Shown here piece after piece: positions 3-18,700 of a stretch of DNA of 51,790 bases. The translations under genes were made by a program, and so were the position numbers. Where the stretch lies: the NCBI GenBank assembly GCA_029006195.1, contig JAQXGH010000053.1:1-51790 (forward strand), written 5' to 3'. The notes under the pieces are model-generated. The model was not told where the DNA came from. It saw only the letters and a list, made by a program, of their open reading frames with translations, and did not search any database. The stretch's first letter is position 1. Each line of letters opens with the position of its first letter. Source of the DNA: Bacillota bacterium. Its GTDB lineage: Bacteria; Bacillota; Clostridia; Peptostreptococcales; Anaerovoracaceae.

Positions 3-512
3 CCCATTTACAAATTCCTGAGATATGATCCTGTAAACAAATTGCCATTAGGGGACGAAAGTTATACAATAATACTGAACAGCAAAGCAGCTGAGCAGAC
101 GGTTCCGATGCCACTTAGAACGTTGTTCAAATATGTAAACACAGAATCAGTCACACCAGGTGATGAATTCATTGAAACGCTTGATGAAAGCATAGATGGA
201 TGGAATTCAGGAGAAAGGGTGGTACAAATCATGACACTCGAGCAGGAAATTCTGATAAGAGAGAATAAAGCCCGAAAAGAGGCCTTCGCAGAAGGAGTAG
301 AAAATGGCATTAAGAAAGGCATCGCCGAAGGCAAGAGCATAGGCATCGCCGAAGGCAAATCAATAGGCATTGCCGAAGGCAAGTCAATAGGCATGGCCGC
401 AGCAAATAAGCAAACAGCCAGCGCCTTAGCAGCTAAAGGCATGCCTATCGAAGAAATCGCCGAAATAATAAGTCTATCAGTCAGCGAAGTTAAAACACTT
501 CTAGATAGTTAA
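3..512 (+). CDS. Rpn-family nuclease/putative transposase, C-terminal part (5' end outside window)
   Basis: The reading frame is open from the first bases, so the start lies upstream and only about 170 residues are seen. The visible part matches the C-terminal half of Rpn (recombination-promoting nuclease, PD-(D/E)XK) proteins: a strand-rich segment reading GDESYTIILNSKA, an acidic helix (DEFIETLDESIDGW), then a long charged helix. The catalytic nuclease core is not in the window. The helix carries three tandem copies of an eight-residue GIAEGKSI unit, followed by a short C-terminal helical cap (MPIEEIAEIISLSVSEVKTLL) typical of the family in Bacillota. Members are usually present in several copies per genome and associate with DNA rearrangement. 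Family assignment is fairly sure; whether the gene is intact cannot be told. Confidence 0.75.
   Translation, partial: PIYKFLRYDPVNKLPLGDESYTIILNSKAAEQTVPMPLRTLFKYVNTESVTPGDEFIETLDESIDGWNSGERVVQIMTLEQEILIRENKARKEAFAEGVENGIKKGIAEGKSIGIAEGKSIGIAEGKSIGMAAANKQTASALAAKGMPIEEIAEIISLSVSEVKTLLDS
319..398 (+). repeat. In-frame 24-bp tandem repeat (about 3.3 copies)
   Basis: Three near-identical 24-bp units begin at 319, 343 and 367, and a partial fourth begins at 391. Each unit encodes GIAEGKSI or a close variant inside the charged helix of the Rpn-family protein. The units differ by only a few bases, so copy number is probably variable by slippage or recombination without breaking the frame. Confidence 0.9.
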
Positions 513-971: not shown

Positions 972-3900
972 ATGAACAAGTTCAGAAAATTGATTGCTAT
1001 ACTTCTGACTGTTGCTTTAGTAGCCACTACCTTAACTTTTACAGCAGGCAATTCGTTGCTGGCTAATGAAGAAGAAGGTGGCGGTTCTAGTGCACCAGCT
1101 CCAAAAGTAGAGCAAACAACTCCAGCACCTGCACCTACGCAGACCGAAAAACAGAACATCACAATTGAAAGTGAGGATTCAAACGGTAGTAGTGAAGGTA
1201 CTGAAGGCGGCGAATCACCTGTAGGTGAAGACGTTGCAAACACTGGAGAAGTAGCTAATGACCCAGCTCCAGAACAGGACGAAGAGGTCAAAGTAACATT
1301 CTCTTCAGAATTTGGTAACATTGAGGTTATCAGCCCAAACGACAAAGCGGGCAAGTACGAAAACAACGACTCGATCAAAGTAAAGAAGGGTGACAAGGTG
1401 TCATTCAAGGTCGTTGACGAAGCTAGAGGTAAGAGGGTTGACACAGTTAGAGCTGATGGCAACACACTCTCACCAAACGGCGTTGTTTATGAATTCACAG
1501 CTAGTAGCAATGCTACAGTAGCTGTTACATTTGTAAACGAAGGCGAAGGCGGTGATGGTACTGAAGGCGAAGGCAGTGAAGAAGGCGAGGACCCAGAGCC
1601 GGGTACGGGCACAGTTGACCCTGCAAAGTACTATTCAATCGCAGTAAACTACATTGATGAAGGCGGTGCGCGTCTCCGTAACTCATACTATGATGACGTT
1701 AGAGAAGGCACTGAAAAGACTGTTGCAATCCCAGCAATCGCAGGATATACAGCAACAATCGATGGCAAAACAGTATCAGAAAGCTATACTGTTAGGATCG
1801 AAAACGACACTACAATCAATGTTGTTTACAAAGCAAAAACAGTAAATTACACAGTAATTCATGATTTCCCTGAAGGTAAGGATGATGTAACAGAAGAACT
1901 TAGCGGCAAGGTTGGCACATACACTGATGCAAACGCTAAGAAGGAAGTTGGTTATGAGCCTAAGGGATTCTCACAGATGCTGATCGACGCTGACGGCGCA
2001 ACAGTTACTATTCCTTACAAGGCAATCAGATACACTGTAAACTTCGATTCACAGGGCGGATCCTTTATAGATTCACAGGCTGGATCAATTGGCGATACAC
2101 TGGCAGTTGAAGCTCCAACAAAGACTGGTTATAACTTCCTGGGCTGGAAGACAAAAGCTGATGGTTCAGGTACTGCTATCGATAGCGATATCACAGTAAA
2201 TGCTAACCAGATTCTCGAAGGAATCTTCAAGGATGGAAACACAGTTACACTTTATGCACAGTGGGAAGCAAAGACTGTAAACTATACAATCAACTACTGG
2301 AAGCAGAAGGTAACTGATGCTGTCAATGCATCAGATGCTCAGAAAACATATGACTACGCTACATCAGAAACAAAGACTGCATTAGCAGGAAGCACAGTTT
2401 CAGGTTCAAACACTCAGTCATATAAGGGTTTTGATTACAACGATAAAAAGACTGACGCGAACATCGAAGTAGCACCAGATGGAACAACAGTAGTAAATGT
2501 TTACTATGATCGTAAGGTTTGTACAGTAAACTTCTACTTATATCAGTCATCTGGCTGGTGGGATGGTAGCTGGGTAGTAGATTCAAGTCACAAGGGCCTC
2601 TATGGTGCACCATTTACTGAATGGAGAACAGATCACTATTGGCATTCATCATATAATGGATCTTCTGGTAGTGGATCAGGCTGTATACTGTTAACTTCAT
2701 ACGATTTCACAACTGCAGGATATGCAAATAATAAGGATAATCAGAAGGCATCAGATGGCACAGTAATTACTTGTAATTTCTACGGCAGTGGAACTACAGG
2801 AAATAGTCACGTACATTACTATAACGAACAGTGGGATGGATCGTTTAAGGAAGTAAGTGACGTTAAGACAAGTGGCGGAACCTTAACTATCCATGAAAAG
2901 TATGAAGGCTATGACCTTTATAAGTACACAACAGGCAGTACTTCTGAAGACTTAACAAAGGCAAGCACATGGAGAGATAAGTCAAACGTTAGTGATGGAA
3001 AACAAACATCTAGATATCCTGTTTACATCGCAAGTACACTTAAGACTCATACTTTAAGCTACTTCAATTACAATAGTGTAGACGCAACTAAGACTGTTAA
3101 GTACACAACTCCACTCAACAAGGTGGAAGGATATAATTACACACCAAATAGACCTGCTGGTCTCGCAAAGTACTACGAATTCCAGGGTTGGTACGCTGAC
3201 AAGGCTTGTTCAGTTCCATTTGACTTCGAAAAAACAACAATGCCTAACAACAACGTACAGGTTTACGCTAAGTGGGCACCTCAGTCATTCGACGTAACAT
3301 TCGATTACAACTATGGCGATGCATCAGATAAGGGCGATCAGCCAGCAAACGTTGTAGTTAAGGACGTTGTAGGCGGACAGACAATCGCTAGCGATAAGAT
3401 TCCAGCAACACCTGCTAACAGAGCAACAGCAGAAGGAAGCTACAAGTTCCTCGGCTGGTTCGTTGACGGAAATCAGAATCGTCCGTTCAATGCAGGCATG
3501 ACTGTAGAAGCTAACTACACAGTTAAGGCTCTTTGGGAATTATCACAGGAAGTTGAATATACAGTAACAACAAAGGCGATTGTTGATGGCCAAGAAATTA
3601 CTATTGGCAATCCTGTAATTAAAGAAGCTTACATTGGTGACAAAATTACTGAGAAAGCGCCTACTTTGACAGGAGACTATGCAAATTACATCCCAGATAA
3701 GCTTTATAAGGAAGTAACACTTTCTGCAGATCCTAGTAAAAACGAAGTAGTATTCATCTACACAACTCCACATAAAGAATATTATAAGGTTGTTTATAAG
3801 GATCCAAATGGTAACGTAATCGGCGCTGGTCCTTCAGGAAACAACGACCCTTCAGACGAAGGCAAGTACAAAGATACAATGACAGTTCCTCTGGATAATC

Positions 3901-6900
3901 CACCAGAAGGATACGACGTACCACCATCAGTAGTAGTTGACTTCACTAAGGGAGACACTCCTAATTCTAATAATCCACTGGTAGTAACAGTAACATGTAC
4001 TCCTAAGATCACGATCGACCTTAATGATGTCACTAAGGTATATGATGGTAAGAAGCACACAGCTGCTGAAGCTAAACCTCCAGTAGTTACGGCTCCAGCC
4101 GGTTACTCTGTAGACGTTGTCTTCGGCCAGGATGGCAGAAAGAACGTTGGTACAACAAGTGTAACTCCTGTTGTAACAGTAACTAGAAATGACGAGACTG
4201 TTGAATCACAGATTTCATACGTAGATGGCAAGAGTGTTGCTAACGTAAAAATCACACCAGCTCCACTGACAGTAACAACAGCAAGCGCTGTTAAGTACTG
4301 GGACGGATACCCTCTCACAAAGGCTGATGGCGCAACGGCTACAGGCTTTGCAGAAGGTGAAGGCGCTACAGTAACAGGCGATGGCACAATCACTGAAGTT
4401 GGCACAGCAGAGAACACAGCTAAGGTTGAATGGAACGACAACACAATTCCAGGAAACTACAACATCACTTACAATCTTGGTACTCTGGAAGTTAAGAACT
4501 TCGACATGCCGATCACTGTAAACGTTGGTTCATATAATGGCGTATACGATGGCGCAGAGCATGGTGTAACAGTGACAGTTGAAGGTCTTGAAGGTATTGA
4601 AGGTCTAGAAGGCTTCACAGCAGAAGCATCATCAAATGCTAAGGGCACACACGTAGCTGATTCTAAGGAAGCAACATGTGACAGCCTCGTGATAAAGAAT
4701 GCAGCTGGCTTAGATGTAACAAGCCACTTCACAAACATCACTAGAAACAACGGCAGCATCACAATCACACCAGCTACTCTGACAGTAACAACTGACAGCG
4801 CTAGCGAACTTTACACAGGCGAAGCTCTCACAGCTCCTGGCGAAGTAACAGGTTACATTGATAACGAAACAGCTACATTCACAGTAACTGGTTCACAGAT
4901 AGAAGTTGGCTCAAGCACTAACACTTATACACTTACATTTGATAAGTCAGCAGCTGAAAGCGACTACACTGTTTCAGAAAGCCTCGGTACTCTGACTATC
5001 ACAGAAAAGGAAGATGCTATCGTAGCAACCCCTAAGACAGTTACAGTTCCATATGATGGCGATGCTCACGGTGTAGAAGTTGAAGTAACTGGACTCCCAG
5101 AAGGTTACAGAGCAGAAGCAACATCAAATGCTGAGGCTACACATGTAGCACAAGGAACAGTTCCAGCAAACGTTGATACTTTCAAAATCATAAGAGTAAG
5201 CGATGGTAAGGATGTTACTAAGGCATTCAAGAACATTACTAAGAATACTGGCAGCATCACAATCACACCAGTAGAGCTCACAGTAACAACTCAGAGCGCT
5301 AGCAAGACTTACGATGGCGAAGCTCTCACAGCGGAAGGTTCAATCGAAGGTTTTGTAAATAACGAAACAGCTACATTCGCAGTAACTGGTTCACAGACAG
5401 CAGTTGGTTCAAGCAGCAATACTTACACATTAAAATTTGATAAGACTGCAGAAGCAACTGACTACACAGTAAATCCAACAGTTGGTACTCTGACAGTAAC
5501 TGAATACGCTGGAGAAATCACAGTAACAACAACAGGCGGCGAAAAGACTTACGACGGTACAGCTCTTACAGCAACAGTAAGCGTAAGCACACTGCCAACA
5601 GGCTACAGAGTAGAAAAGGCTGAATCAACAGCAACAGCTACACATGTAGCAGAAGGAACAGTTCCAGCAACAGCTGACGTTCTGGTAATCAAAAACGCTG
5701 CAGACGAAGATGTAACAGCTAAGCTGAATATCCATAAGGTAAACGACACAATCAAGATCAACCCAGCTACACTGACAGTAACAACTCCAAGTGATAGCAA
5801 GGTATATGATGGTACTCCACTTACTAAGGAAGGTACTATCACAGGTTTCGTAACAGTAGATGAAGTTACAGAAACAGCAACATTCAATACAATTGGTTCA
5901 CAGACTGCAGTAGGTTCAAGTGATAATACTTATGAAATCGTTTGGAACGGTACAGCGGTTGAAACTGACTACACAGTAAACGAATCAGTAGGTACTCTGA
6001 CAGTAACTGAATACGCTGACCAGATCGTAGTAACTACAACAGGCGAAACTGCTACATACGACGGATTACCACACGGTGCAACTGTTGAAGTAACAGGATT
6101 ACCTAATGGCTACACTGTAGAAACAGCAACATCATCAGCAACACTTACAGATGCCGGTACTAAGACTGCAGATTGCGATACTCTGGTTATCAAGAACGCT
6201 CAGGGCAAAGATGTAACAGCTAAGCTGAACGTAAATAAGATCCCAGGCACAATCACAGTAAACAAGAAGGATGTTACAGTAGTAACAGGCGGCGCAACAA
6301 AGGTATACGATGGCAAAGCTCTTACTAATAACGACGTAACAGTAACTGGTATCGTTGACGGCGAAACATTCGGTAAGGTAGCTACAGGTAAGCAGACAGA
6401 AGTAGGAACAAGCAAGAACACATATAAGCTCATCTTCGGAGACATCCTCCACGAAGGCGAAAACTATACTGCAAAGGCTTCAAACTACAACGTAGAACTC
6501 AGTCTGGTAGACGGCTACACAGTTCCAGCAGCTAAGGAAACTCTCGGAGATCTGACAGTAACTGAATACGCTGGAGAAATCACAGTAACAACAACAGGCG
6601 GTACATTCACTTACGACGGTCAGGCTCATGGAGCAACAGTAGAAGTAAGCACACTGCCAGCTGGCTACACATTAGAAAAGGCTGCATCAACAGCAACAGC
6701 TACACACGTAGCTCAAGGAGCAGTTCCAGCAACAGCTGACGTTCTGGTAATCAAGAATGCGAAGGGTGAAGATGTAACAAGCAGACTGACTGGAATTACA
6801 TATGTAGATGGCACAATCAAGATCAACCCAGCTACACTGACAGTAGTAACACCAGATGCTGATAAGGTTTACGATGGTAAGGCTCTCACAGCAGAAGGTT

Positions 6901-9900
6901 CAATCGAAGGTTTCGTAGCAAACGAAACTGCAACATTCGCAACAACTGGTTCACAGACAGCAGTTGGCTCAAGTAACAATACTTACTCATTAGTATTCGA
7001 TGGAACAGCAGTTGAAAGCGACTACACAGTTGACGAAACAGTTGGTACCCTGACAGTAACTCAGTCAACAGATGAAATCGTAATCACAACTAAGGGCGGC
7101 GAATTCACATATGATGGCTTAGATTATAAGGGAACAGTAACAGTTGGAACTCTGCCAGAAGGCTACACAGTAGAAGTAGCTGAATCAACAACAACAGTTA
7201 AGAACGTTGCTGAAGGCGAAAAGAACGTTACAGCTGACCATGTTGTGATCAGAAACGCTGAAGGCGAAGATGTAACTGAAGATCTCAACATCAAGTATGT
7301 TGATGACACAATCAAGGTTACACCAGCAACACTGACAGTAGTTACACCAGATGCTAACAAGACTTACGATGGAACAGCTCTTACAGCAGAAGGTTCAATC
7401 GAAGGTTTCGTAGCAAACGAAACTGCAACATTCAAGACAACAGGTACGCAGACAGCAGTTGGTTCAAGTGACAATACTTACTCATTAGTATTCGACGGAA
7501 CTGCAGCTGAAAGCAACTACACAGTTGACGAAACAGTTGGTACTCTGACAGTAAGTGAATCAACTGAAGAAATCACAGTAACAACAACAGGCGGCACTAA
7601 GACTTACGATGGAACACCACAGGGTGCAACAGTAGAAGTAAGCACACTGCCAGCTGGATACACATTAGAAAAGGCTGCATCAACAGCAACAGCTACACAC
7701 GTAGCTCAAGGAACAGTTACAGCAACAGCTGATCAGCTGATCATCAGAAATGCTGAAGGTGAAGATGTAACAGCTAAGCTGAACATCAAGAAGGTAGACG
7801 GAAGCATCAAGATCAACCCAGCTACACTGACAGTTGAAACACCAGATGCTAGCAAGGTATATGATGGTACTCCACTTACTAAGGAAGGTTCAATCGAAGG
7901 TTTCGTAAATAACGAAACAGCAACATTCAAGACAACAGGTAGCCAGACAGATGTTGGTACAAGCGATAATACTTACACATTAGTATTCGACAAGACAGCA
8001 GCTGAATCAGACTACACAGTTGAAGGTTCAGTTGGTGCTCTGACAGTAACTCAGTCAAAGGATGAAATCGTAGTAACAACAACAGGCGGCGAATTCACTT
8101 ATGACGGAACAGCTCATGGAGCTACAGTAACAGTAGGCAAGCTGCCAACTGGATACACATTAGAAAAGGCTGAATCAACAGCAACAGCTACACACGTAGC
8201 AGAAGGAACAGTTCCAGCAACAGCTGACGTACTCGTAATCAAGAATGCCAAGGGCGAAGATGTAACATCAGATCTGAATATCAGATACGTAGATGGCGGC
8301 ATCAAGATCAACCCAGCAACACTGACAGTAGTAACACCAGATGCTAACAAGACTTACGATGGTAAGGCTCTCACAGCAGAAGGTACAATTACAGGATTCA
8401 TCGGCGAAGAAACAGCTACATTCGAAACAACAGGCAGCCAGACAGTTGTTGGTTCAAGCGACAACACTTACAGCCTGAAGTTCGATGGAACAGCAGCTGA
8501 ATCAGACTACACAGTAGATGAAACAGTTGGTACTCTGACAGTAAGTGAATACGCTGGAGAAATCACAGTAACAACAACAGGCGGCACTAAGACTTACGAT
8601 GGAACACCACAGGGTGCAACAGTAGAAGTAAGCGCACTGCCAGCTGGATACACATTAGAAAAGGCTGAATCAACAGCAACAGCTATACATGTAGCGGAAG
8701 GAACAGTTACAGCAACAGCTGATGTTCTGGTAATCAAGAATGCAGACGGCGAAGATGTAACAGCTAAGCTGAACATCAAGAAGGTAGACGGAAGCATCAA
8801 GATCAACCCAGCAACACTGACAGTTGTAACTCCAACAGAATCAAAGGTTTACGATGGTAAGGCCCTCACAGCAGAAGGTACAATCGAAGGCTTCATTGGC
8901 GACGAAGAAGCAACATTCGAAACAACTGGTTCACAGACTAAGGTCGGAACAAGTGACAACACTTACTCATTAGTATTCGATAAGACTGCAAAGGCTACAG
9001 ACTACACAGTTGCCGAAACTATCGGTAAGCTGACAGTAACTCAGTCAAAGGATGAAATCGTAGTAACAACAACAGGTGGCGAATTCACTTATGACGGTGA
9101 TGATCATAAGGGTACTGTAACAGTTGGCACAGTTCCAGAAGGTTACACAGTAGAAGTTGCAGAAACAACAACAACAGTTAAGGCTGTTGATGACGGTGAA
9201 AAGACAGTAACAGCTGACAAGCTCATCATCAGAAACGCTGAAGGCGAAGATGTAACTGAAGAACTCAACATTAAGTATGTTGATGACACAATCAAGGTTA
9301 CACCAGCTACACTGACAGTAGTAACACCAGATGCTAGCAAGACTTACGATGGAACAGCTCTTACAGCAGAAGGTACAATTGAAGGATTCGTTAAGGAAGA
9401 GACTGCAGACTTTGCAACAACTGGTTCACAGACTAATGTTGGAAACAGCAAGAACACTTACGAAATCACTTGGGACGGTACTGCTAAGGAATCAAACTAC
9501 ACAGTTGAAGAAACAGTAGGTACTCTGACAGTAACTCCTAAGTCAATCGTTCCAGGAATTGATCCTGGCGATGAACCACCAGTTGATCCACCAGTTAACC
9601 CAGCTAACGGTACGAACGGTGCACAGTGTGATAGCCCATCAAATTATGTTTACGATGGTAATACACACCAGTGGAATCCAACACTCAGCGATAAGGAAAC
9701 TGGCAAGACCATTCCAACAAGCGAATACACAGTTAAGTACAATACTACAGATTTCACAAACACTGGCGAAATCAGAGTAACAATCACTGCAGATCCTAAC
9801 GGAAACTACACTGGTTCATTCATCAAGACTTACAAGATCACACCAGCTCCTCTGAAGGTTGAAACTTATAGCGCAACTAAGGTTTACGACACCAAGCCGC

Positions 9901-11417
9901 TCACAGCAGGAGGCGAAATCATCGGAATCGTTGATGGCGAAACAGTAGAATTCAAGACAACTGGTTCACAGACTGAAGAGGGCAGCTGCCAGAACACTTA
10001 TGAACTTAAGTGGGGAACAGCTAAGGAAAGCAACTATCAGAAGCCAGTAGAAGAACTTGGTACTCTGACAGTAACTCCTAAGTCAATCGTTCCAGTAGAT
10101 CCAGATGATCCTTCAGACAAGGGAATCACAGTTAATAAGCCATCAGACGTAACATATGACGGCGATGCACATAAGTGGATCCCAGTTGTTAAGGATACGG
10201 AAACTGGCAAGACTCTGGTTGAAGGTGAGGACTACACAGTAACTTATCCAACAGACGACTTCACAAATGTAACTGGTGAAATCATCGTTGAAATCAATGG
10301 TAAAGGAAACTATAAAGATAGCTTCACAGAAAGCTACCAGATCACACCAGCTCCTCTGAAGGTTAAAACTGAAGGCGCAACTAAGGTTTACGACAAAAAT
10401 CCGCTCACAAATGAAAATGCTACAATCTCAGGCTTAGTTAAGAATGAAACAGCAACTATCAAGGGTATTGGTTCACGTACGACGGTTGGCCATACTGAAA
10501 ACAATTACGAAATCACTTGGGGCACAGCTAAGGAAACTAACTACAAAATCGTAGAAGAAGTACTTGGCTTACTGGTAGTAATTGAAACTCAAGAAGAAAT
10601 CGTAGTAACAACTACAGGCGGCAAGTTCGTATATGACGGTAAGACTCATAGAGCAACTGTAGAAGTAACATTCGGTAAAGAAGTTGCTGCATCTGATTCA
10701 GAAGTAGCGCTTACTGGTCACGAATTGCCAGAAGGCTACAGAGTTGAAACCGCAGAATCAAACGACAGTGCAACTCACGTAAGTGAAGGCGTTGTTAAGG
10801 CAGACTGCGATAAACTCGTGATCGTAAACGGAGAAAACGAAGACGTAACTTCAAAGCTCAAGATCAGATACGTTAATGACACAATCGAAATTCTTCCTAC
10901 ACCACTGACTGTTAAGACAGAAAGTGCAACTAGAAGAGCAAACAAAAAGCCATTAACAGCAGGCGGAAGCGTAACAGGATATGTTGGCGATGAAACAGCT
11001 ACATTCACAGTAACTGGTAGCAGGACTAAGATTGGTAAGTCACTTAATACTTACACATTAGTATTTGACCAGACTGCAGCTGAAACTGACTACAGCATCG
11101 TAGAAGAGCTTGGTATTTTGAGAGTAACAGCACCTGCACCTGGCCCTGGCCCTGGCCCTGGCCCTGGATCAAATCCACCAGTTGATCCAGATGATCCAAC
11201 TGATCCAGATGTCAATGTTCAGAGAATCGTTGATAATAACACACCTATCGGTAATGAAATTCTCGACGAATACTGCTGTATCCTGCACCTGATTATCATG
11301 CTGATTGCAATGATCCTCCTGATCGCTTATACTTATGATATGAAGAAGCGTCAGAAGAGAATCTTCGAACTTCAGGAAGAGATCGATGAGATCACTAACG
11401 GCGAAGGGCTCGAATAA
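972..11417 (+). CDS. Giant secreted MBG-repeat surface protein with C-terminal membrane anchor (3481 aa)
   Basis: An N-terminal signal peptide (residues 1 to about 31, hydrophobic core IAILLTVALVATTL) is followed by an acidic and Pro-rich linker to about residue 220. A beta-rich region follows with InlB-type (Listeria-Bacteroides) repeats near residues 350-430 and 730-790 (ending in YAQW and YAKW). From about residue 1012 to 3386 there are roughly 28 MBG-type repeats, each marked by a YDG or YDGxxL motif. Most alternate between two kinds. A (GP)n stretch and a Pro/Asp linker lead to a membrane helix at about 3434-3455, preceded by two cysteines (EYCC) and followed by a basic, heptad-like tail ending the protein. 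There is no LPxTG motif, so anchoring is by the helix rather than by sortase. Probable role is as a long cell-surface stalk or adhesin; ligand unknown. The start is set by GTGGAGGC and the signal peptide. Confidence 0.9.
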   Translation: MNKFRKLIAILLTVALVATTLTFTAGNSLLANEEEGGGSSAPAPKVEQTTPAPAPTQTEKQNITIESEDSNGSSEGTEGGESPVGEDVANTGEVANDPAPEQDEEVKVTFSSEFGNIEVISPNDKAGKYENNDSIKVKKGDKVSFKVVDEARGKRVDTVRADGNTLSPNGVVYEFTASSNATVAVTFVNEGEGGDGTEGEGSEEGEDPEPGTGTVDPAKYYSIAVNYIDEGGARLRNSYYDDVREGTEKTVAIPAIAGYTATIDGKTVSESYTVRIENDTTINVVYKAKTVNYTVIHDFPEGKDDVTEELSGKVGTYTDANAKKEVGYEPKGFSQMLIDADGATVTIPYKAIRYTVNFDSQGGSFIDSQAGSIGDTLAVEAPTKTGYNFLGWKTKADGSGTAIDSDITVNANQILEGIFKDGNTVTLYAQWEAKTVNYTINYWKQKVTDAVNASDAQKTYDYATSETKTALAGSTVSGSNTQSYKGFDYNDKKTDANIEVAPDGTTVVNVYYDRKVCTVNFYLYQSSGWWDGSWVVDSSHKGLYGAPFTEWRTDHYWHSSYNGSSGSGSGCILLTSYDFTTAGYANNKDNQKASDGTVITCNFYGSGTTGNSHVHYYNEQWDGSFKEVSDVKTSGGTLTIHEKYEGYDLYKYTTGSTSEDLTKASTWRDKSNVSDGKQTSRYPVYIASTLKTHTLSYFNYNSVDATKTVKYTTPLNKVEGYNYTPNRPAGLAKYYEFQGWYADKACSVPFDFEKTTMPNNNVQVYAKWAPQSFDVTFDYNYGDASDKGDQPANVVVKDVVGGQTIASDKIPATPANRATAEGSYKFLGWFVDGNQNRPFNAGMTVEANYTVKALWELSQEVEYTVTTKAIVDGQEITIGNPVIKEAYIGDKITEKAPTLTGDYANYIPDKLYKEVTLSADPSKNEVVFIYTTPHKEYYKVVYKDPNGNVIGAGPSGNNDPSDEGKYKDTMTVPLDNPPEGYDVPPSVVVDFTKGDTPNSNNPLVVTVTCTPKITIDLNDVTKVYDGKKHTAAEAKPPVVTAPAGYSVDVVFGQDGRKNVGTTSVTPVVTVTRNDETVESQISYVDGKSVANVKITPAPLTVTTASAVKYWDGYPLTKADGATATGFAEGEGATVTGDGTITEVGTAENTAKVEWNDNTIPGNYNITYNLGTLEVKNFDMPITVNVGSYNGVYDGAEHGVTVTVEGLEGIEGLEGFTAEASSNAKGTHVADSKEATCDSLVIKNAAGLDVTSHFTNITRNNGSITITPATLTVTTDSASELYTGEALTAPGEVTGYIDNETATFTVTGSQIEVGSSTNTYTLTFDKSAAESDYTVSESLGTLTITEKEDAIVATPKTVTVPYDGDAHGVEVEVTGLPEGYRAEATSNAEATHVAQGTVPANVDTFKIIRVSDGKDVTKAFKNITKNTGSITITPVELTVTTQSASKTYDGEALTAEGSIEGFVNNETATFAVTGSQTAVGSSSNTYTLKFDKTAEATDYTVNPTVGTLTVTEYAGEITVTTTGGEKTYDGTALTATVSVSTLPTGYRVEKAESTATATHVAEGTVPATADVLVIKNAADEDVTAKLNIHKVNDTIKINPATLTVTTPSDSKVYDGTPLTKEGTITGFVTVDEVTETATFNTIGSQTAVGSSDNTYEIVWNGTAVETDYTVNESVGTLTVTEYADQIVVTTTGETATYDGLPHGATVEVTGLPNGYTVETATSSATLTDAGTKTADCDTLVIKNAQGKDVTAKLNVNKIPGTITVNKKDVTVVTGGATKVYDGKALTNNDVTVTGIVDGETFGKVATGKQTEVGTSKNTYKLIFGDILHEGENYTAKASNYNVELSLVDGYTVPAAKETLGDLTVTEYAGEITVTTTGGTFTYDGQAHGATVEVSTLPAGYTLEKAASTATATHVAQGAVPATADVLVIKNAKGEDVTSRLTGITYVDGTIKINPATLTVVTPDADKVYDGKALTAEGSIEGFVANETATFATTGSQTAVGSSNNTYSLVFDGTAVESDYTVDETVGTLTVTQSTDEIVITTKGGEFTYDGLDYKGTVTVGTLPEGYTVEVAESTTTVKNVAEGEKNVTADHVVIRNAEGEDVTEDLNIKYVDDTIKVTPATLTVVTPDANKTYDGTALTAEGSIEGFVANETATFKTTGTQTAVGSSDNTYSLVFDGTAAESNYTVDETVGTLTVSESTEEITVTTTGGTKTYDGTPQGATVEVSTLPAGYTLEKAASTATATHVAQGTVTATADQLIIRNAEGEDVTAKLNIKKVDGSIKINPATLTVETPDASKVYDGTPLTKEGSIEGFVNNETATFKTTGSQTDVGTSDNTYTLVFDKTAAESDYTVEGSVGALTVTQSKDEIVVTTTGGEFTYDGTAHGATVTVGKLPTGYTLEKAESTATATHVAEGTVPATADVLVIKNAKGEDVTSDLNIRYVDGGIKINPATLTVVTPDANKTYDGKALTAEGTITGFIGEETATFETTGSQTVVGSSDNTYSLKFDGTAAESDYTVDETVGTLTVSEYAGEITVTTTGGTKTYDGTPQGATVEVSALPAGYTLEKAESTATAIHVAEGTVTATADVLVIKNADGEDVTAKLNIKKVDGSIKINPATLTVVTPTESKVYDGKALTAEGTIEGFIGDEEATFETTGSQTKVGTSDNTYSLVFDKTAKATDYTVAETIGKLTVTQSKDEIVVTTTGGEFTYDGDDHKGTVTVGTVPEGYTVEVAETTTTVKAVDDGEKTVTADKLIIRNAEGEDVTEELNIKYVDDTIKVTPATLTVVTPDASKTYDGTALTAEGTIEGFVKEETADFATTGSQTNVGNSKNTYEITWDGTAKESNYTVEETVGTLTVTPKSIVPGIDPGDEPPVDPPVNPANGTNGAQCDSPSNYVYDGNTHQWNPTLSDKETGKTIPTSEYTVKYNTTDFTNTGEIRVTITADPNGNYTGSFIKTYKITPAPLKVETYSATKVYDTKPLTAGGEIIGIVDGETVEFKTTGSQTEEGSCQNTYELKWGTAKESNYQKPVEELGTLTVTPKSIVPVDPDDPSDKGITVNKPSDVTYDGDAHKWIPVVKDTETGKTLVEGEDYTVTYPTDDFTNVTGEIIVEINGKGNYKDSFTESYQITPAPLKVKTEGATKVYDKNPLTNENATISGLVKNETATIKGIGSRTTVGHTENNYEITWGTAKETNYKIVEEVLGLLVVIETQEEIVVTTTGGKFVYDGKTHRATVEVTFGKEVAASDSEVALTGHELPEGYRVETAESNDSATHVSEGVVKADCDKLVIVNGENEDVTSKLKIRYVNDTIEILPTPLTVKTESATRRANKKPLTAGGSVTGYVGDETATFTVTGSRTKIGKSLNTYTLVFDQTAAETDYSIVEELGILRVTAPAPGPGPGPGPGSNPPVDPDDPTDPDVNVQRIVDNNTPIGNEILDEYCCILHLIIMLIAMILLIAYTYDMKKRQKRIFELQEEIDEITNGEGLE
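4005..11131 (+). repeat. MBG repeat array inside the giant surface gene
   Basis: About 7.1 kb codes for some 28 beta-sandwich repeats. Type A (about 14 copies) carries YDGxxLT, a GFVxxETATF-like stretch, TGSQTxVGSS and a DYTVxExVGTLTV end. Type B (about 11 copies) carries VTTTGGxxTYDG, LPxGYTxE, ATHVAEGTV and IKNAxGEDVT. Two further units near residues 2880-2960 and 3050-3130 are a third kind with a DxETGK motif. Adjacent A and B units form a higher-order period of about 150 residues. Several units are near-identical at DNA level, so assembly collapse and length variation are real risks. Confidence 0.85.
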
Positions 11418-11454
11418 TGTAAATCACTATTAAAGAAAACGGAGGTAAAAAGCA

Positions 11455-11661
11455 ATGTTCGGATTACATGAAACAATTCATAACACATACGGCATCTGTC
11501 TTTGGACTTTACTGGCGTTCTTAGTACTGATAGTGATGATCATTATCGCTGCAGTACACATCGCTAAGCAGAAGAACAGAGACGATCGTAACGAAAAGAA
11601 GCGCGAAAGATATGCTGAAGAAATGGAAGCTGCTAATAATCCAGCTGCTTCAGAAAGGTAG
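11455..11661 (+). CDS. Small one-helix membrane protein, partner candidate 1 (68 aa)
   Basis: No family was recognised. A short neutral N-terminus of about 15 residues ends in GICLW. One membrane helix follows (about residues 16-38), then a strongly charged tail (KQKNRDDRNEKKRERYAEE). The positive-inside rule places the N-terminus outside and the tail in the cytoplasm, without a cleavable signal. It starts 38 bases after the giant MBG gene with a strong GGAGGT site, and no terminator lies between them, so the two are probably co-transcribed. The layout (Cys at the outer face, helix, charged tail) copies the C-terminal end of the giant protein. A role as anchor partner or assembly factor is inference. 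Confidence 0.7.
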   Translation: MFGLHETIHNTYGICLWTLLAFLVLIVMIIIAAVHIAKQKNRDDRNEKKRERYAEEMEAANNPAASER

Positions 11662-11668
11662 GTAAGAT

Positions 11669-11854
11669 ATGCATCATCATACATTATTAGGATTTTGCGG
11701 ATGGGACCTGCCCGCAGCTATCATACTGATAGCAGTAATTGTTATATTCATCATCAGAGACAGAAAGCTTAAGCACAAAGTCAACGAACTGGAAGACCAG
11801 CTCGATGAGCTTAAGGAAGGTCCAGATGCTGATGTTAGCGAAGGCAATCAGTAG
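11669..11854 (+). CDS. Small one-helix membrane protein with cytoplasmic coiled coil, partner candidate 2 (61 aa)
   Basis: No family was recognised. The N-terminus begins MHHHTLLGFCGWD and is followed by one membrane helix (about residues 14-30). The cytoplasmic tail reads KHKVNELEDQLDELKEG, with a leucine/valine heptad pattern. The giant protein's last residues (RIFELQEEIDEI) have a similar pattern, so a cytoplasmic coiled-coil contact between the two is plausible but unproven. The gene starts eight bases after the previous stop, with an AGGTAGG ribosome binding site, and is the last gene before a strong terminator. Topology is the same as in the preceding small protein. Confidence 0.7.
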   Translation: MHHHTLLGFCGWDLPAAIILIAVIVIFIIRDRKLKHKVNELEDQLDELKEGPDADVSEGNQ

Positions 11855-11870
11855 CTAAAAGACAAAATTA

Positions 11871-11908
11871 AAGGGCCTGGCTGGTATCAGCCAGGCCCTT
11901 TTTATTTT
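11871..11908 (+). terminator. Strong intrinsic terminator ending the giant MBG operon
   Basis: A perfect 13-bp stem (AAGGGCCTGGCTG, loop GTAT, reverse complement) spans 11871-11900. It is followed by TTTATTTT. It closes the three-gene unit and separates it from the signal peptidase gene. Confidence 0.95.
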
Positions 11909-11936
11909 GTGAAAACACTATATGTCGTGGTATAAT
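11907..11936 (+). promoter_or_regulatory. Promoter of the signal peptidase gene
   Basis: TTGTGA (11907-11912) and a perfect TATAAT (11931-11936) are 18 bases apart. The -10 box overlaps an in-frame ATG at 11935, which argues against that ATG being the translation start. Confidence 0.7.
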
Positions 11937-11967: not shown

Positions 11968-12489
11968 ATGGCGAAAGCGAGAAAATTCGGCAAATATGAT
12001 AAGAAGAAGTTCGAGTGGATCAGAACTTTTGAGATTGTAGTAATCACGGCGGCACTGGTAGTTGCAGCGCTGCTTTTTATTGTTGGAACATCCCGCGTAG
12101 ATGGTCAATCAATGGTACCTACATTAAAGGATAGTCAGCTCGTTGGTTATCTGAGAGTGGGGAATGATTATGAGAAGGGCGATATCGTTGCCATAAAGAT
12201 GCCGTCTGGCGATAGATACGTTAAGAGAATAATCGCGACAGAAGGCGAAACTATAGATATTAGAGAAGGTAATGTTTATGTTGATGGACAGAAGCTTGAC
12301 GAGCCGTATATTCAGGGTGTAACATGGCCGGATCTAAGTGAACAGTCGGCGCATATTACTTATCCGTATAAGGTTGAAGCGGGCAAGTATTTCGTAATGG
12401 GAGATAACCGTGAACATTCAACTGACTCCAGAAGGTTCGGTGCTGTTGTTAAAGGCAGCATAAGGGGTAAACTTTTGTTTCAAAAATAA
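11968..12489 (+). CDS. lepB: Signal peptidase I (173 aa)
   Basis: Removes signal peptides from exported pre-proteins at the outer face of the membrane. All family boxes are present: GQSMVPTL with nucleophile Ser48, GDRYVKRIIATEGE with general base Lys86, and GDNREHSTDSRRFG near residues 147-160. One N-terminal membrane segment (about residues 21-40) follows a very basic head. The length is normal for a Gram-positive type I enzyme. I chose the ATG at 11968, which has a GGAAAGG site; the upstream in-frame ATG at 11935 lies inside the -10 box. The gene sits alone between two giant secreted proteins, so a preference for processing them is possible but not shown. Confidence 0.93.
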   Translation: MAKARKFGKYDKKKFEWIRTFEIVVITAALVVAALLFIVGTSRVDGQSMVPTLKDSQLVGYLRVGNDYEKGDIVAIKMPSGDRYVKRIIATEGETIDIREGNVYVDGQKLDEPYIQGVTWPDLSEQSAHITYPYKVEAGKYFVMGDNREHSTDSRRFGAVVKGSIRGKLLFQK

Positions 12490-12715: not shown

Positions 12716-15700
12716 ATGAAGAAACGTAATTGGAGAAGCAAAACGCTAGCGCTGATTATGGCATTCGTAATGGTATTCACGTGTACTAACACGTCGATTA
12801 TGGCCTTTGCGGGTGAAAATCAGAGCGTACCAGTTGCGACACAGTCAACAGATGACATTCAGGGCGGTGACAACGCAGGTGATGAAGACGGTGATTACAA
12901 TGCTCCTGTAACAGAGGATCTGGGACGTGCTGCAGCTCCACAGGCAGATGCTGACGATGACAAGTACTACGACATCAGTAAGATGAATCCACAGGTTACT
13001 ATGGAATATAAGATTGCTGGCGAGTGGAAAAGTCAGTCATGGGTAGACAGTCACTATAAGAGTGATGAACACCAGGGCATTCCTGAAACTACACCTGTCA
13101 GATTTTCAGTGAATTTCACAACTGACGTAAAGCATACTTATGTTCCTGAAGATCAGCTTTATTATATGCCGTTAGTTAGGGATCTTGATTGGGGCAGCTT
13201 TAGAATCACTACGCTTAACGGCGAAATGCCAGATGGTCTTGAAACTGCCGGAACATGGAATATCACAGAAGCAAACCGCCAGTACAAGGTTTTAGTAGAT
13301 CTGGATGACAACTACATTTCAGGAACTCCTCACCTTGAAGGCGGCTATGTAACTATTGAGGGTGAACTGCGTTATACTCCAGGAGATTCACATACAATGA
13401 CTGTTCCTTTCCCTGGAACTCCTGGCATTGTTGTTCCTATTAAGAAGGCAAACGATGCAACTGTAAACCTTAAGATGAACAAGACTAAGGTTAACGGCGG
13501 CGGAATATATAAAGAAGGAAATAATTATTACATGAATTATAGCCTTCAGGTTACAAATACAGGCGATAAGGATGCTACAGGCGTAATTGTTAAAGACTAT
13601 CCGGGCAAACAGGATAACGCCCCAAACGATAAGCGCTACAATCCTGTAAATGCAGGCGACCAGATATACGCTAAGGATGCAACAGAGAAGGAAATAATCA
13701 CTAAGACAGACGGTACAGCTGAGACAAGGCTGCAGTACGTGAATGGTGTGTGGACTTGGAATGTTGGAACTGTTCCGGCAGGACAGACTGTCACACTCAA
13801 CTATAGAATACAGCTGACAGACGAAGTAAACCAGAAGGACGTTCGCATTTATAACGATGCTGGCGTTTGGTATGGTCAGGAGTTCATGCATAGTGACTGG
13901 GAAGATGTTTCAACAGCTGCAGGTCTTAAAGATAATAATAAGGAAATTACAAGCGGGTATCACAAAGACGAAAATGGTAATCAAGTAATCTCATATAAGG
14001 TTTCAACAACAGCGAAGCCGACAAACCTTAGGGACCTTCAGAATGTCAAGATTCATGACTATGTAAATTTAGAGGCTGATGCAGATAAGGCTAAGGCGCA
14101 GTATTATCATTATACTAATCCGAAGGTATCGGTTGGCGGAGTTACATATACAATTGGTCAGCCTGTCGGAACTGGCGACAAGACATGGTCACTTACTCCA
14201 CCAAACAGCTCTTCGATAGGCAACATCGTTGAGAAGACAAATGCTAATGCTTCTAGAAAGCAAGATAGAAAATACATTGAATTTACTATTCCAACACTGG
14301 CTCCAGGACAGACTATTGAATTCACTTATGATTTAATCATTGATAACGAGCTCTTCACTAATTTCGGATCTCAGGCTAGCGGTGATAAGGGCCAGGAAGC
14401 GGTTAATGCTACAAGCTTAACGGTTAAGAACTACGCTGATATTTCTGTTAATGGAAGTGTTAAGGCTTACCCGAGCACAGAAAAAACTATCACAAAGGGA
14501 TGGATTAAGAAGAATGGTGTGAAGAAGGAGCCTGGTTTCTGGGAATTCACACTTAAAGTCAATGAACCAAAGAAGGGTGAGCCTAGCGTTGTAACTAGCA
14601 GCTCTGTAAACAACATTAAGGATATGCTTGGCCCAGGCTGGCAGTACTGCGATGAAAACAAAGCTGGCGATGGAACAAAGACGAAGGTATACATTACCAA
14701 GTATCCTATCAATAGTGATGGTGAATCATATAATAAGAATGATCCAAAGACAGAAACAAAAGAAGTCACCATTACTCAGTTAACTGATAGTAAATATGCA
14801 ACAAGCTGGTCATTCCAGGATACTGGTGCATACTACTATGAAGTTAAATACTATGCTAAGAGAGTAGACTCAAGAGTATCTGATGATATGGGTAATGGCG
14901 CTGGATACGGTATCGGCCCAGGGCTGGACCCATTCATTCACGAAGCATACTGGGAAGGTGAAGACCACTCAGGAAAGGCCCTCACTAAGGAAGCTAAGGG
15001 CTTCAATGCTGACAATACTGTTGCTTCATGGGAAGTTAGAGTAAACCACAATGTATATAATGGTTGGACACTCACTGACAAGCCATTGGAAGGAACTACA
15101 GATGAAGAGACTGGTGAGACAACTGGCGCTTCAAAGGGCTTCACAATTAAGCCTGAAACGCTGAAGGTTGAAAGACTTAATGGCCAAAATATAGACTCAA
15201 GTAAGTACACAGTATCATATGATACTAAGACATATGTAATCACATTCAATGCGGATATCCCTGCATCAGATTCAAATCCTATCGTTGTTAAATACGATAC
15301 AGATCTTGATGCTAAGGATATCGAAGATGCTGCTAAGGGCGAAGAATTAACATATAAGAACAAGGCTATTCTTAGCGGCGGTACATCAAATGAGGTTGAA
15401 GCTGAAGCTGAACAGTCCTTCACTAAATCAGACTATATCAGTAAGAGATGCGACGGTATCTCAAACGGAATCATCACTTGGTCAGTTACAATTAACGGTA
15501 CTGGCGAAATGTCTGGTGATGCTACTGTATATGATGTAATTCCAGAAGGAACTGAATACGTTGAGAACTCAGCACACATTACAGATCACGGCAGCGCAGC
15601 AGCAGATACAATGATGCAGCTGGGACAGCCAGCGATCCAGGCTGGCAAGCTGGTAATGCTGTTTAACAACCTGCATGCAACAAAACAGAAGAATGCATCA

Positions 15701-18700
15701 GTTACAGTTGAGTTAAAGACAAAGATCGTTGATCCTAATTTCACACAAGAAAATGTTGCTGAAGGCGATTGTGTATACAAAAACGAAGCACAGCTCGTTT
15801 ATGGCGGTAAGACAAGAAAGGCATTTGCAGAAGCTAAACCAACAAACACTGTACTTACTAAAAACGGCAACCTCGACGCAGGACATCTTTTTGATTATGT
15901 CATTACAATAAATGAAGACGCTGTAGATATTAACCCAGATGGCGATACAGTTAAGCTCATAGATGAACATTCAAGTAACATGATGATTCAGACTGAAACT
16001 ATCCAGGTTAAGAAAAACGGTGTTAAACTTGACCCTCAGCCTAAGGTTGAAATCGATGGTAATACTCTGACAATGGAAATTCCAGATAATCAGAAGCTTA
16101 CTCTCGAATACACTTGCTATATATTTGGTAAGGAAGGTGAATCAACACCTATCAGCAATACTGTTAAGTTCGAAGGAAGCAAGACAGTAACTCACGGACC
16201 TACATCAGTGGTTATTAATAAGGGTTCGGGCGGAATCAGCGGTGTTCCAAGTGTTAAGGTTAAGAAATTAGACGGAAGCGACATAAAGAAGACTATTGGA
16301 GGCGCTAAGTTCCAGTTATATAGCGTAACTGCTCAGGATGGCAAACTCGTTGCAACAAAATCAGGAGAACCTAAGGCAACTGGTGCTAATGGATTGGCTA
16401 CATTTGACGTAGAATGGGACGAAGTCTTCGCGCTTCAGGAAGTTGAAACAATGCCTGGATTCGTTCTTGATGATTCAATGATTTACTTCTACATTGAAAA
16501 GAACGGAATCTCAGATGAACTTAAGGCAGCTGCTGAAGCACAAGGCGTAACATTAAAGCAAGTTGAAAAGCACTTCACATTTGAAAGATTCAATCAGCCA
16601 AGAACTCTTAATGTTTCTAAGGTAGACTTCTCGAAAGCTGGCGTAGAAATTAAGGGAGCACATATTAAGGTTCTGAACCCAGACGGATCAGTATTCGACG
16701 AATGGGATACTGACGGCAAGATTCACCAGGTTCAGTATCTGTTAGCAGACACTCTCTACACAATCATAGAAACAAAGGCTCCAGAAGAATTCGATAAGAT
16801 CCATGACATCACATTTGAGCTGGACAAGGATGGAAACCTTAAGACAGATAAGGGTTCAGTAAATACAGAAAAGGTAACATCAGAAATTAAGGATGATAAC
16901 ACAGTTATCCTTAAGGATATGCCTTTAACGAAGATTAATATCGAAAAGATCTGGGATGATGCTGAGTTTAAGAAATTAGAAGACAAGGGTTACAATAGAC
17001 CTGACAAGATCACTTACAACCTCTATGGTGCAATCTCAGATAATACTCAGGTTTACCCAGCAGATGGCACTAAGGCTACACAGGACGGTCTTAAGGCTAA
17101 CAACTGGAAGGCTGAATTTACTAACCTGCCAAAGTATGATGAAGCAACAGGCGAAGAAATCACATACTACGTATATGAAAGTGATTTAGATGGATATGCT
17201 TCATCAAACTACAGCAGAAACCCTGCAGTAGTATCAGGTGACAAGGTAACTATTACAAATACTCCTGAAGAAGGGGATGAAGACTTTGCACCTCTGGATA
17301 TCACGATCCACAAGATCGACACAACTACAAAAGAAAACCTGGCAGGAGCTACATTCACTATCAAGAAGGATGGCAAAACTGTAGGCACAACTCAGTCAAC
17401 AGATGAAGCAAAGGGTGAAACAACATTCACATTCGTTGAACCGGGAACTTACACTATCACTGAAGCTCAGGCTCCAGACGGATATCTCCTGGGAACAGAT
17501 GAATACACTGTTGAAGTAACTAAGGGTGGCGTTAAGGAAGTAGTAAAGAGAGAGAATACAGAAGGCAAGAACGTATTCGTTAAGATCTTCAATCTGCTCT
17601 TCGGAAAGAATGAATTAATTCCATTCGTTAACGGCGTTCTCACAGTAGAAGATACACCAAGATCATTCAGCATCTCAAAGGTTGACTTTGAAAACACAGA
17701 TGTTGAACTTGCAGGAGCACACATCCAGGTTCTGAACCCAGACGGATCAGTATTCGACGAATGGGATACTGGTAGAGTTCACACAGTTAAGGGCCTCGAA
17801 AGCGACGTATTATACACAATCACAGAAACTGAAGTTCCAGAAGGCCATATCGCGATCAACGATATTACTTTCGAACTTGATAAGGATGGAAACCTCAAGA
17901 CTGATAAGGGAACTGTAAACACTGAAACAGTTACTTCAGAAGTTAAGGGCGGCAAGATCGTTCTTAAGGACATTCCTTTAACTAAGGTTGACGTTAAGAA
18001 GACTTGGAAGGATGGAAACATCGCCGGTAAGAAGGGATATACTAGACCTGAAATCAACTTTAACTTAGTTGGAACAGTTGGCGAAGATACAGTATATGCA
18101 AAGGCTACAAAGACTGGAACAGAAGAGAACAATTGGACAGTAACATTCGATGAGCTTCCTAAGTATGACCTCGAAACTGGACAGAAGGTAACTTATAAGG
18201 TTTATGAAGACGAAGCTAGCGGCTATGAATCATCTAACCTGGAAAATAATCCGGTTGATGCTACAGCAGCAGGCTACAAGGCAGAAATCACTAACACTCC
18301 AAATGAAGATGAAGATTACCTGCCTATCGATCTGCACATCCTGAAGACAGACAGCACTGATAAGACTAAGAAGCTCGCAGGTGCTAAGTTCAAGGTAACT
18401 GATGAAGCAGGACAGCAGATAGAAGAAGTTAAGGCTACTGATGAAAATGGAAACACTTCATTCACATTCACAAAACCCGGCACATATACAGTAACTGAAG
18501 TTGAAGCTCCAGACGGATACCTCCTCGGAGATGACAAATACGTAGTTACAGTAGAAAAGAACGGAATCGTTGAAGTAAAGAAGAGCGAAGATAATATCTT
18601 CATTAAGATCTATGACCTGCTCTTCGGAAAGAATGATCTTGATAACTTCAAGGATGGCGTCCTCACAGTTCCAAACGAACCAACTGACGTAGAAGTACTG

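Follow-up and report, generated by a model that had tools for sequence, protein, structure and literature searches.

How might a bacterium hold in its envelope a surface protein of several thousand residues that carries no sortase signal? The question is raised by a contig of 51,790 nucleotides from a Bacillota bacterium of the family Anaerovoracaceae (JAQXGH010000053.1), which was analysed whole and is called the window here; it is contig C53 of genome G000, which is about 85% complete. On its plus strand lie a gene for a giant surface protein (972..11417) and two genes for tiny membrane proteins, small partner 1 (11455..11661, 68 amino acids) and small partner 2 (11669..11854, 61 amino acids). 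We find that the C-terminal tail of the giant and the partners form a unit that recurs in other bacteria, and with moderate confidence we read tail and partners as the two halves of a dedicated membrane-anchoring or assembly module for giant surface proteins.

At 3481 amino acids, the giant has a signal peptide (judged by eye), List_Bact/InlB-B and MBG repeats and a C-terminal tail; the MBG_2 match is above the Pfam cut-off (33.4 against 25 bits, in four stretches), as is that of the List_Bact repeat. No LPxTG-like motif turned up in a pattern check of the protein, and the sortase family PF04203 had no match in genome G000 at its 85% completeness. The tail (11229..11414, plus strand), delimited by alignment and column counts, runs TPI(G), linker, CC, ILH, transmembrane helix and KKRQKRIFELQEEI, and the protein ends in ...EYCCILHLIIMLIAMILLIAYTYDMKKRQKRIFELQEEIDEITNGEGLE. 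Its hallmarks are a conserved Pro, CCxxH, the helix and then a basic and short heptad stretch, the window giant showing Cys-Cys and one helix followed by KKRQKRIFELQEEIDEI. Partner 1 has an HxxxGIC motif (...HNTYGICLW, at the presumed outer face), one helix and a basic, charged tail, and a GGAGG lies 9 nt 5′ of its gene; partner 2, with an HTxxGFCxWD motif, consists of HHHTLLGFCGWD, one helix and a short heptad tail, KVNELEDQLDELKEG. Gaps of 37 nt between the giant and partner 1 and 7 nt between the partners, together with a strong intrinsic terminator 3′ of all three genes (11870..11901, plus strand; a 14-pair stem with nine GC pairs and T-rich sequence after it), bear out the three-gene layout of the original prediction, that of a giant without LPxTG followed by two tiny single-span proteins.

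Profile and sequence cross-hits show the two small proteins to be homologous, and thus paralogues. Tail and partner profiles align with an hhalign probability of 88% (E 3.3e-6) over only 30 columns, the helix and basic stretch, so that the common C-terminal plan first suggested for all three proteins holds as shared architecture, while a common origin of tail and partner is no more than possible on a match of this length. That the partners are chance open reading frames or unrelated peptides is ruled out, since the ratio of non-synonymous to synonymous substitution rates (dN/dS) stayed within 0.03-0.28 throughout the 19 pairwise comparisons, which drew on four groups of close relatives and 50-63 codons each, and the partners are conserved beside tails in other bacteria; they are under purifying selection. 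A single partner is found in Extibacter, Dorea D27, Acetobacterium, CE91-St61 and metagenome-assembled genomes (MAGs) of Oscillospiraceae, and two partners elsewhere. The single partners score about equally with both small-protein profiles, and in a FastTree tree of 72 partners many partner-2 sequences cluster and the singles fall between the types, with weak support. The simplest reading of these sequences, though unproven, would be that one ancestral partner was duplicated.

Neither half of the unit matched a named family convincingly. Partner 1 of the window had only sub-cut-off matches in Pfam and NCBIfam, and partner 2 no Pfam match and only sub-cut-off NCBIfam matches. Among 26 partners compared with Pfam, CcmD matched two (best E 3.8e-4) and LapA_dom, DUF6377 and DUF4381 one each, cut-offs not being compared. 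For the tail there was no NCBIfam match among 26 tails and no Pfam match among the four mini-tail proteins and the tail ends of giants that were scanned. PDB sequences gave no convincing match for tail or partners; the best for the partners was a designed repeat protein at E 2e-4, with no single stretch passing alone.

Recurrence was first visible within the family: of 197 genomes searched with single sequences (E<=0.01), 9 gave a hit to the tail, 12 to partner 2 and 13 to partner 1. The unit was confirmed in its context in ten of these genomes (G000, G190, G003, G017, G021, G076, G082, G130, G131 and G145); the weak hits in G117, G160, G133, G186, G013, G028, G097 and G187 proved to be no unit when their loci were profile-scanned, with sub-threshold matches only. 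Across 393 genomes of the order, the partner-2 profile matched 67 (E<=0.01), 16 of them strongly (E<1e-8) and all 16 in the same family. The remainder are taken to be mostly generic helices, with G114 proving on reading to be a divergent unit. A tail protein adjoins the partner in 12 of the 16 strong matches, twice as a mini-tail; in G433 the two partners stand at the ends of two contigs, and the frame of the giant in G356 holds one TAG. The tail could not be judged in G076, G021 and G436, where the end of the giant is masked or lies beyond the contig, or where the contig itself stops, and G370, the last of the 16, gave no tail match anywhere in its genome. In G131, G076, G021 and G356 the partners lie 5′ of the giant instead of 3′.

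A scan of 84,980 species genomes for the tail alone, in which one of two patterns contained CCI[LF]H, returned 41 loci, and these were examined with partner profiles for which no genomes but that of the window and nine more of the family had been used. One or two partners adjoin 34 of the 44 tails at these loci (upstream in L142); the fraction is 31 of 40 when the loci of profile-building genomes (L106, L114, L121) are set aside, and 28 of 37 when three further loci that re-find known contigs are excluded as well (six in all). The small genes are thus not absent beside homologous tails. Conversely, among 8637 segments the profiles picked out 51 as partner-like, of which 49 adjoin a tail and the other two, from Acetobacterium tundrae, adjoin a tail cut by the locus edge. 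By title, the carriers include Extibacter muris, Dorea sp. D27, Faecalicatena contorta, Mediterraneibacter agrestimuris, A. tundrae and a MAG titled Acetobacterium woodii, along with many MAGs titled Oscillospiraceae, Lachnospiraceae or Ruminococcus.

The unit is also modular. In eight giants scanned, the tail sits on differing ectodomains, and the proposed tie to giant MBG proteins is accordingly kept for some of them and widened to DUF7507/DUF11, MucBP, InlB-B and Big_2 giants for the rest. One partner pair is accompanied by three tails in G433 and in G422 and by two in G190; a second pair may be missing in G433 and G422 because these genomes are about 85% complete. A tail-bearing open frame in G433 (C149:254-418, minus strand) reaches 5790 amino acids. 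In G017, G404 and G395 a mini-protein of about 120-170 amino acids carrying the tail clearly lies between an anti-sigma gene and both partners, partner 1 of G404 and G395 being assigned by position without a profile match; the same order is seen in G114 and G184 with weak profile matches, and in G169 by position and eye only. Where the giant's end could be read, in G404 and G395, it is a different, multi-span C-terminus. At L147 and L148, giants of two mini-tail lineages end in this manner with WAL[LI]NL...RLLGIIPAAAA, a surface-protein ending that also has no name. Since partners adjoin 34 of 44 tails and still follow tails that have become separate mini-proteins, a dedicated membrane unit is supported, and with it in part the proposal that three helices form a membrane complex for the stalk; the part given to the cysteines is weaker.

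Those cysteines belong to a set of conserved positions on the presumed outer face. The first His column of the partners is filled in 71 of 72 retained sequences, with His in all 71, and the Cys column reads Cys in 55, His in 13 and Asp in 3 of 71, counts that are too high for the family as a whole because the retained set, matches above 25 bits, drops most partners of the mini-tail lineages, which lack these residues. In 51 retained tails the two Cys columns are filled by Cys in 46 and 48, the His column by His in 50 and the Pro column by Pro in all; the Cys and His counts are biased by the CCI[LF]H search pattern, a bias of which the partner figures are free. G404 and G395 keep the genes, but neither partner has the Cys/His positions any longer and the tail has lost its Cys. 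The G131 tail reads CN..P, its partners having His (partner 1) and Asp (partner 2) at the motif site. A single tail Cys is present in G356, G003 and the second L127 tail, with motif Cys in two, one and one partners, respectively. Joint loss of tail and partner sites is suggestive, with few events and some exceptions. Hydrophobic columns at heptad-like spacing occur in the cytosolic stretches of both tail and partner.

Obligatory disulfides or lipidation at these cysteines are unlikely, because the Cys is exchanged for His in 13 of 71 partners (and for Asp in 3) and the site is gone in G404 and G395. A rule by which each of the two tail Cys pairs with one partner Cys was also rejected, given eight CC tails accompanied by a His-type first and a Cys-type second partner, and G356, with one tail Cys against two partner Cys. 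Lipidation was rejected in turn, as the partner Cys lies outside any lipobox (by eye) and exchanges with His. Because of this Cys-to-His exchange, a metal ligand is a possible role that would fit the site better than a disulfide or a lipid.

In the mechanism that we favour, the giant would be exported by way of its N-terminal signal peptide, and its C-terminal helix would stop it in the membrane. One tiny partner, probably the ancestral state, or two after duplication would share the same out-to-in orientation and pack against the tail helix. Contact would be made at the outer face by the conserved His/Cys positions, CCxxH of the tail with HxxxxxC/H of the partners, inside the bilayer by packing of the helices, and on the cytosolic side by the short heptad stretches, so that the base of the stalk is held as a small oligomer. 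The larger locus of which the unit is part, comprising an extracytoplasmic-function (ECF) sigma factor, a membrane anti-sigma factor, a degenerate GGDEF protein, a transglutaminase-like lipoprotein, a PilT/PilC-type machine and signal peptidase I, would probably control and assist the building of the stalk through the wall.

Several observations weigh against this reading. The heptads put forward in the original prediction are there, but they are very short, about two, and the Cys/His sites, having disappeared from some lineages, are hence dispensable. Where the tail is a mini-protein separate from the giant, it cannot serve there as the anchor of that giant. Ten of the 44 tails have no adjacent partner, namely the second tail of L106, L109, L112 (at a contig end), L128, L131, the L132 mini-tail, L135, two in L141 and L143; the genomes of L106, L109, L131, L132, L141 and L143 have a partner elsewhere (by contig name prefix), L112 and L135 belong to one genome in which no partner was seen, and L128 stands alone. 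In G135 a mini-tail is assigned from its position and no partner was found, and G370, 94% complete, has both partners and the peptidase with no tail matched. No PilT/PilC hit was obtained in 11 loci of at most about 20 kb each (L107, L108, L110, L111, L117, L123, L127, L133, L137, L138 and L140). Finally, of 391 genomes in the class, the partner profile and the tail profile each picked out that of the window alone, and the system is therefore sporadic outside the family.

Among the alternatives, the best placed is that the tail is a proteolytic sorting signal, cut by a protease or transpeptidase, for instance near the invariant Pro of its T/V-P-L-A motif, with the small proteins as escorts or adaptors, after the manner of PEP-CTERM/exosortase or GlyGly-CTERM/rhombosortase systems. 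The order of motif, helix and basic cluster does resemble sorting signals, the Pro is invariant in the retained tails, and three genomes have two or three tails for each partner pair. However, signal peptidase I is the sole known processing protease among neighbour families present in at least four loci (exosortases were not searched for), no sortase was found in the window genome, 85% complete, and the tail has a conserved heptad stretch after its basic cluster, which is not a known feature of such signals. We therefore consider a cleaved signal unlikely.

The neighbourhood of the unit bears on two further alternatives. Clustering of the open reading frames that flank 54 loci returned signal peptidase I at 23, sigma/anti-sigma genes at 18, GGDEF at 16, PilC at 7, the transglutaminase lipoprotein at 6 and PilT at 4. 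The sigma/anti-sigma pair does no more than make a signalling link thinkable, and the sensing of tension put forward in the original prediction would be speculative. In such a link the tail-partner complex would report export of the giant, or load on it, to the pair. Hits to the anti-sigma profile came from 13 of the 197 genomes of the family, eight of the ten unit genomes against five of the 187 others (Fisher p ~1e-9, uncorrected for relatedness); with G114, G184 and G169 counted as units the figures are 11 of 13 against 2 of 184, the remaining two being G135 and G156, at contig ends. The mini-tail lies directly 3′ of the anti-sigma gene in G017, G404, G395, G114 and G184. At four loci the ECF sigma factor and the membrane anti-sigma factor are fused (L058:9344-10381, L061:6031-7056, L172:7179-8411 and L173:6923-8146). 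Many units, however, have no sigma gene in the surrounding DNA examined, and a genomic association cannot tell signalling from co-regulation; a signalling module seems to us quite improbable.

Wherever the DNA covers it, the PilT/PilC cluster runs from the transglutaminase lipoprotein through PilC/GspF and four small membrane proteins to PilT, as seen in L054, L153 (upstream of L053), L058, L060, L061/L152, L124, L169 and L174, with only its start in L125, L126 and L144. GGDEF, ECF sigma and anti-sigma genes precede it in L054, L053/L153, L169, L174, L126 and L144; sigma and anti-sigma are swapped in L124 and L125, and this part is divergent in L058, L060 and L061. In the window genome the cluster lies on another contig than the unit (G000:C26:24098-30818, equivalent to L169:6099-12819, minus strand), as PilT, PilC, four small proteins, transglutaminase lipoprotein, anti-sigma, sigma and degenerate GGDEF, and it is likewise on a separate contig (C37) in G130. 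The PilT family TIGR01420 is matched at 415.1 bits (cut-off 319.1) and a PilC/GspF homologue is present. The four small proteins (own-genome copies) have no NCBIfam match and, in L169, no clear prepilin motif by eye; the third (L169, also L054, L058 and L124) starts with an ME/LE/IE-type helix. No second ATPase was seen in the mapped clusters; outside the cluster, a further T2SSE gene and a prepilin peptidase are present in the window genome. Of 23 GGDEF proteins of the cluster type, 22 have a readable motif and none of these is GG(D/E)EF, most being GGNKF or similar, so that cyclase activity is unlikely. The C26 cluster looks like an undescribed PilT-type envelope machine. A more far-reaching picture, that of an envelope machine not described before, in which giant stalks are extruded or loaded by a PilT/PilC-type motor under a dedicated ECF sigma system and have their bases clasped in the membrane by one or two tiny proteins, through an extracytoplasmic Cys/His metal site that the helices share, we regard as doubtful. 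That the small proteins are themselves subunits of this machine, coupling the giant to it, is hardly probable: the cluster is whole or partial beside units in L054, L053/L153, L058, L060, L061/L152, L124, L125, L126 and L144 and is found elsewhere in the genomes of the window and G130, but in the mapped loci the partners lie outside it, beside the tail, the giant or the signal peptidase, and the 11 loci without a PilT/PilC hit in the DNA examined are Lachnospiraceae-like and have units.

Just beyond the terminator of the window unit is signal peptidase I (TIGR02227, 11935..12489, plus strand). A promoter-like site with TG before the -10 element (10 of 12 matches) lies just 5′ of this gene at 11907-11936, and as it ends at 11936, translation probably begins at the ATG at 11968. 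Beside the peptidase, at 12716-20167, is a second giant of 2483 amino acids with SpaA/Cna_B domains and a KPKTG end, present although no PF04203 sortase was found in the incomplete genome. Near the tail giants of two genomes (window 42-512 and L053:11191-12120) are open reading frames with C-terminal IAEGKSIG- or KADGKIEG-type repeats, which we take to resemble PD-(D/E)XK transposase-like genes.

Compared with known systems, the unit resembles the LPxTG/sortase signal in having a C-terminal motif, a helix and basic residues on large repeat-rich surface proteins, and differs in that LPxTG is absent, a sortase was not found, and a conserved cytosolic heptad stretch and dedicated small membrane partners are present. 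PEP-CTERM/exosortase and GlyGly-CTERM/rhombosortase likewise have several tail-bearing proteins for each dedicated membrane factor, a polytopic enzyme there as against a single-span partner of about 60 residues here. Both rank among the systems nearest to the unit (PMC1569441, PMC3237569). Gram-positive type IV pili with pilT (PMC3244431) share the PilT family and PilC/GspF with the unit-associated cluster, which differs by adding the ECF sigma and anti-sigma factors, the degenerate GGDEF protein and the transglutaminase lipoprotein, by small proteins without a clear prepilin motif (by eye) and in that no second ATPase was seen in the clusters mapped. No description of the unit was among the matches listed in open-access full-text literature, and the earlier statement that no described system of such composition was known agrees with this result. 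The function given here to the tail-partner module is a prediction.

Little is known about how bacteria hold surface fibres of several thousand residues in the absence of a sortase signal. In some anaerobic Clostridia-type bacteria, a tail of about 55 residues is accompanied by one or two tiny dedicated membrane proteins, in what seems to be an undescribed means to hold or assemble very long fibres, and the short tail, its one or two partners and often a sigma-controlled PilT/PilC cluster recur across several Clostridia-type groups without a family name. Because named strains carry the unit, among them Extibacter muris DSM 28560, Mediterraneibacter agrestimuris DSM 111629 and Faecalicatena contorta NLAE-zl-C134, it is directly testable.

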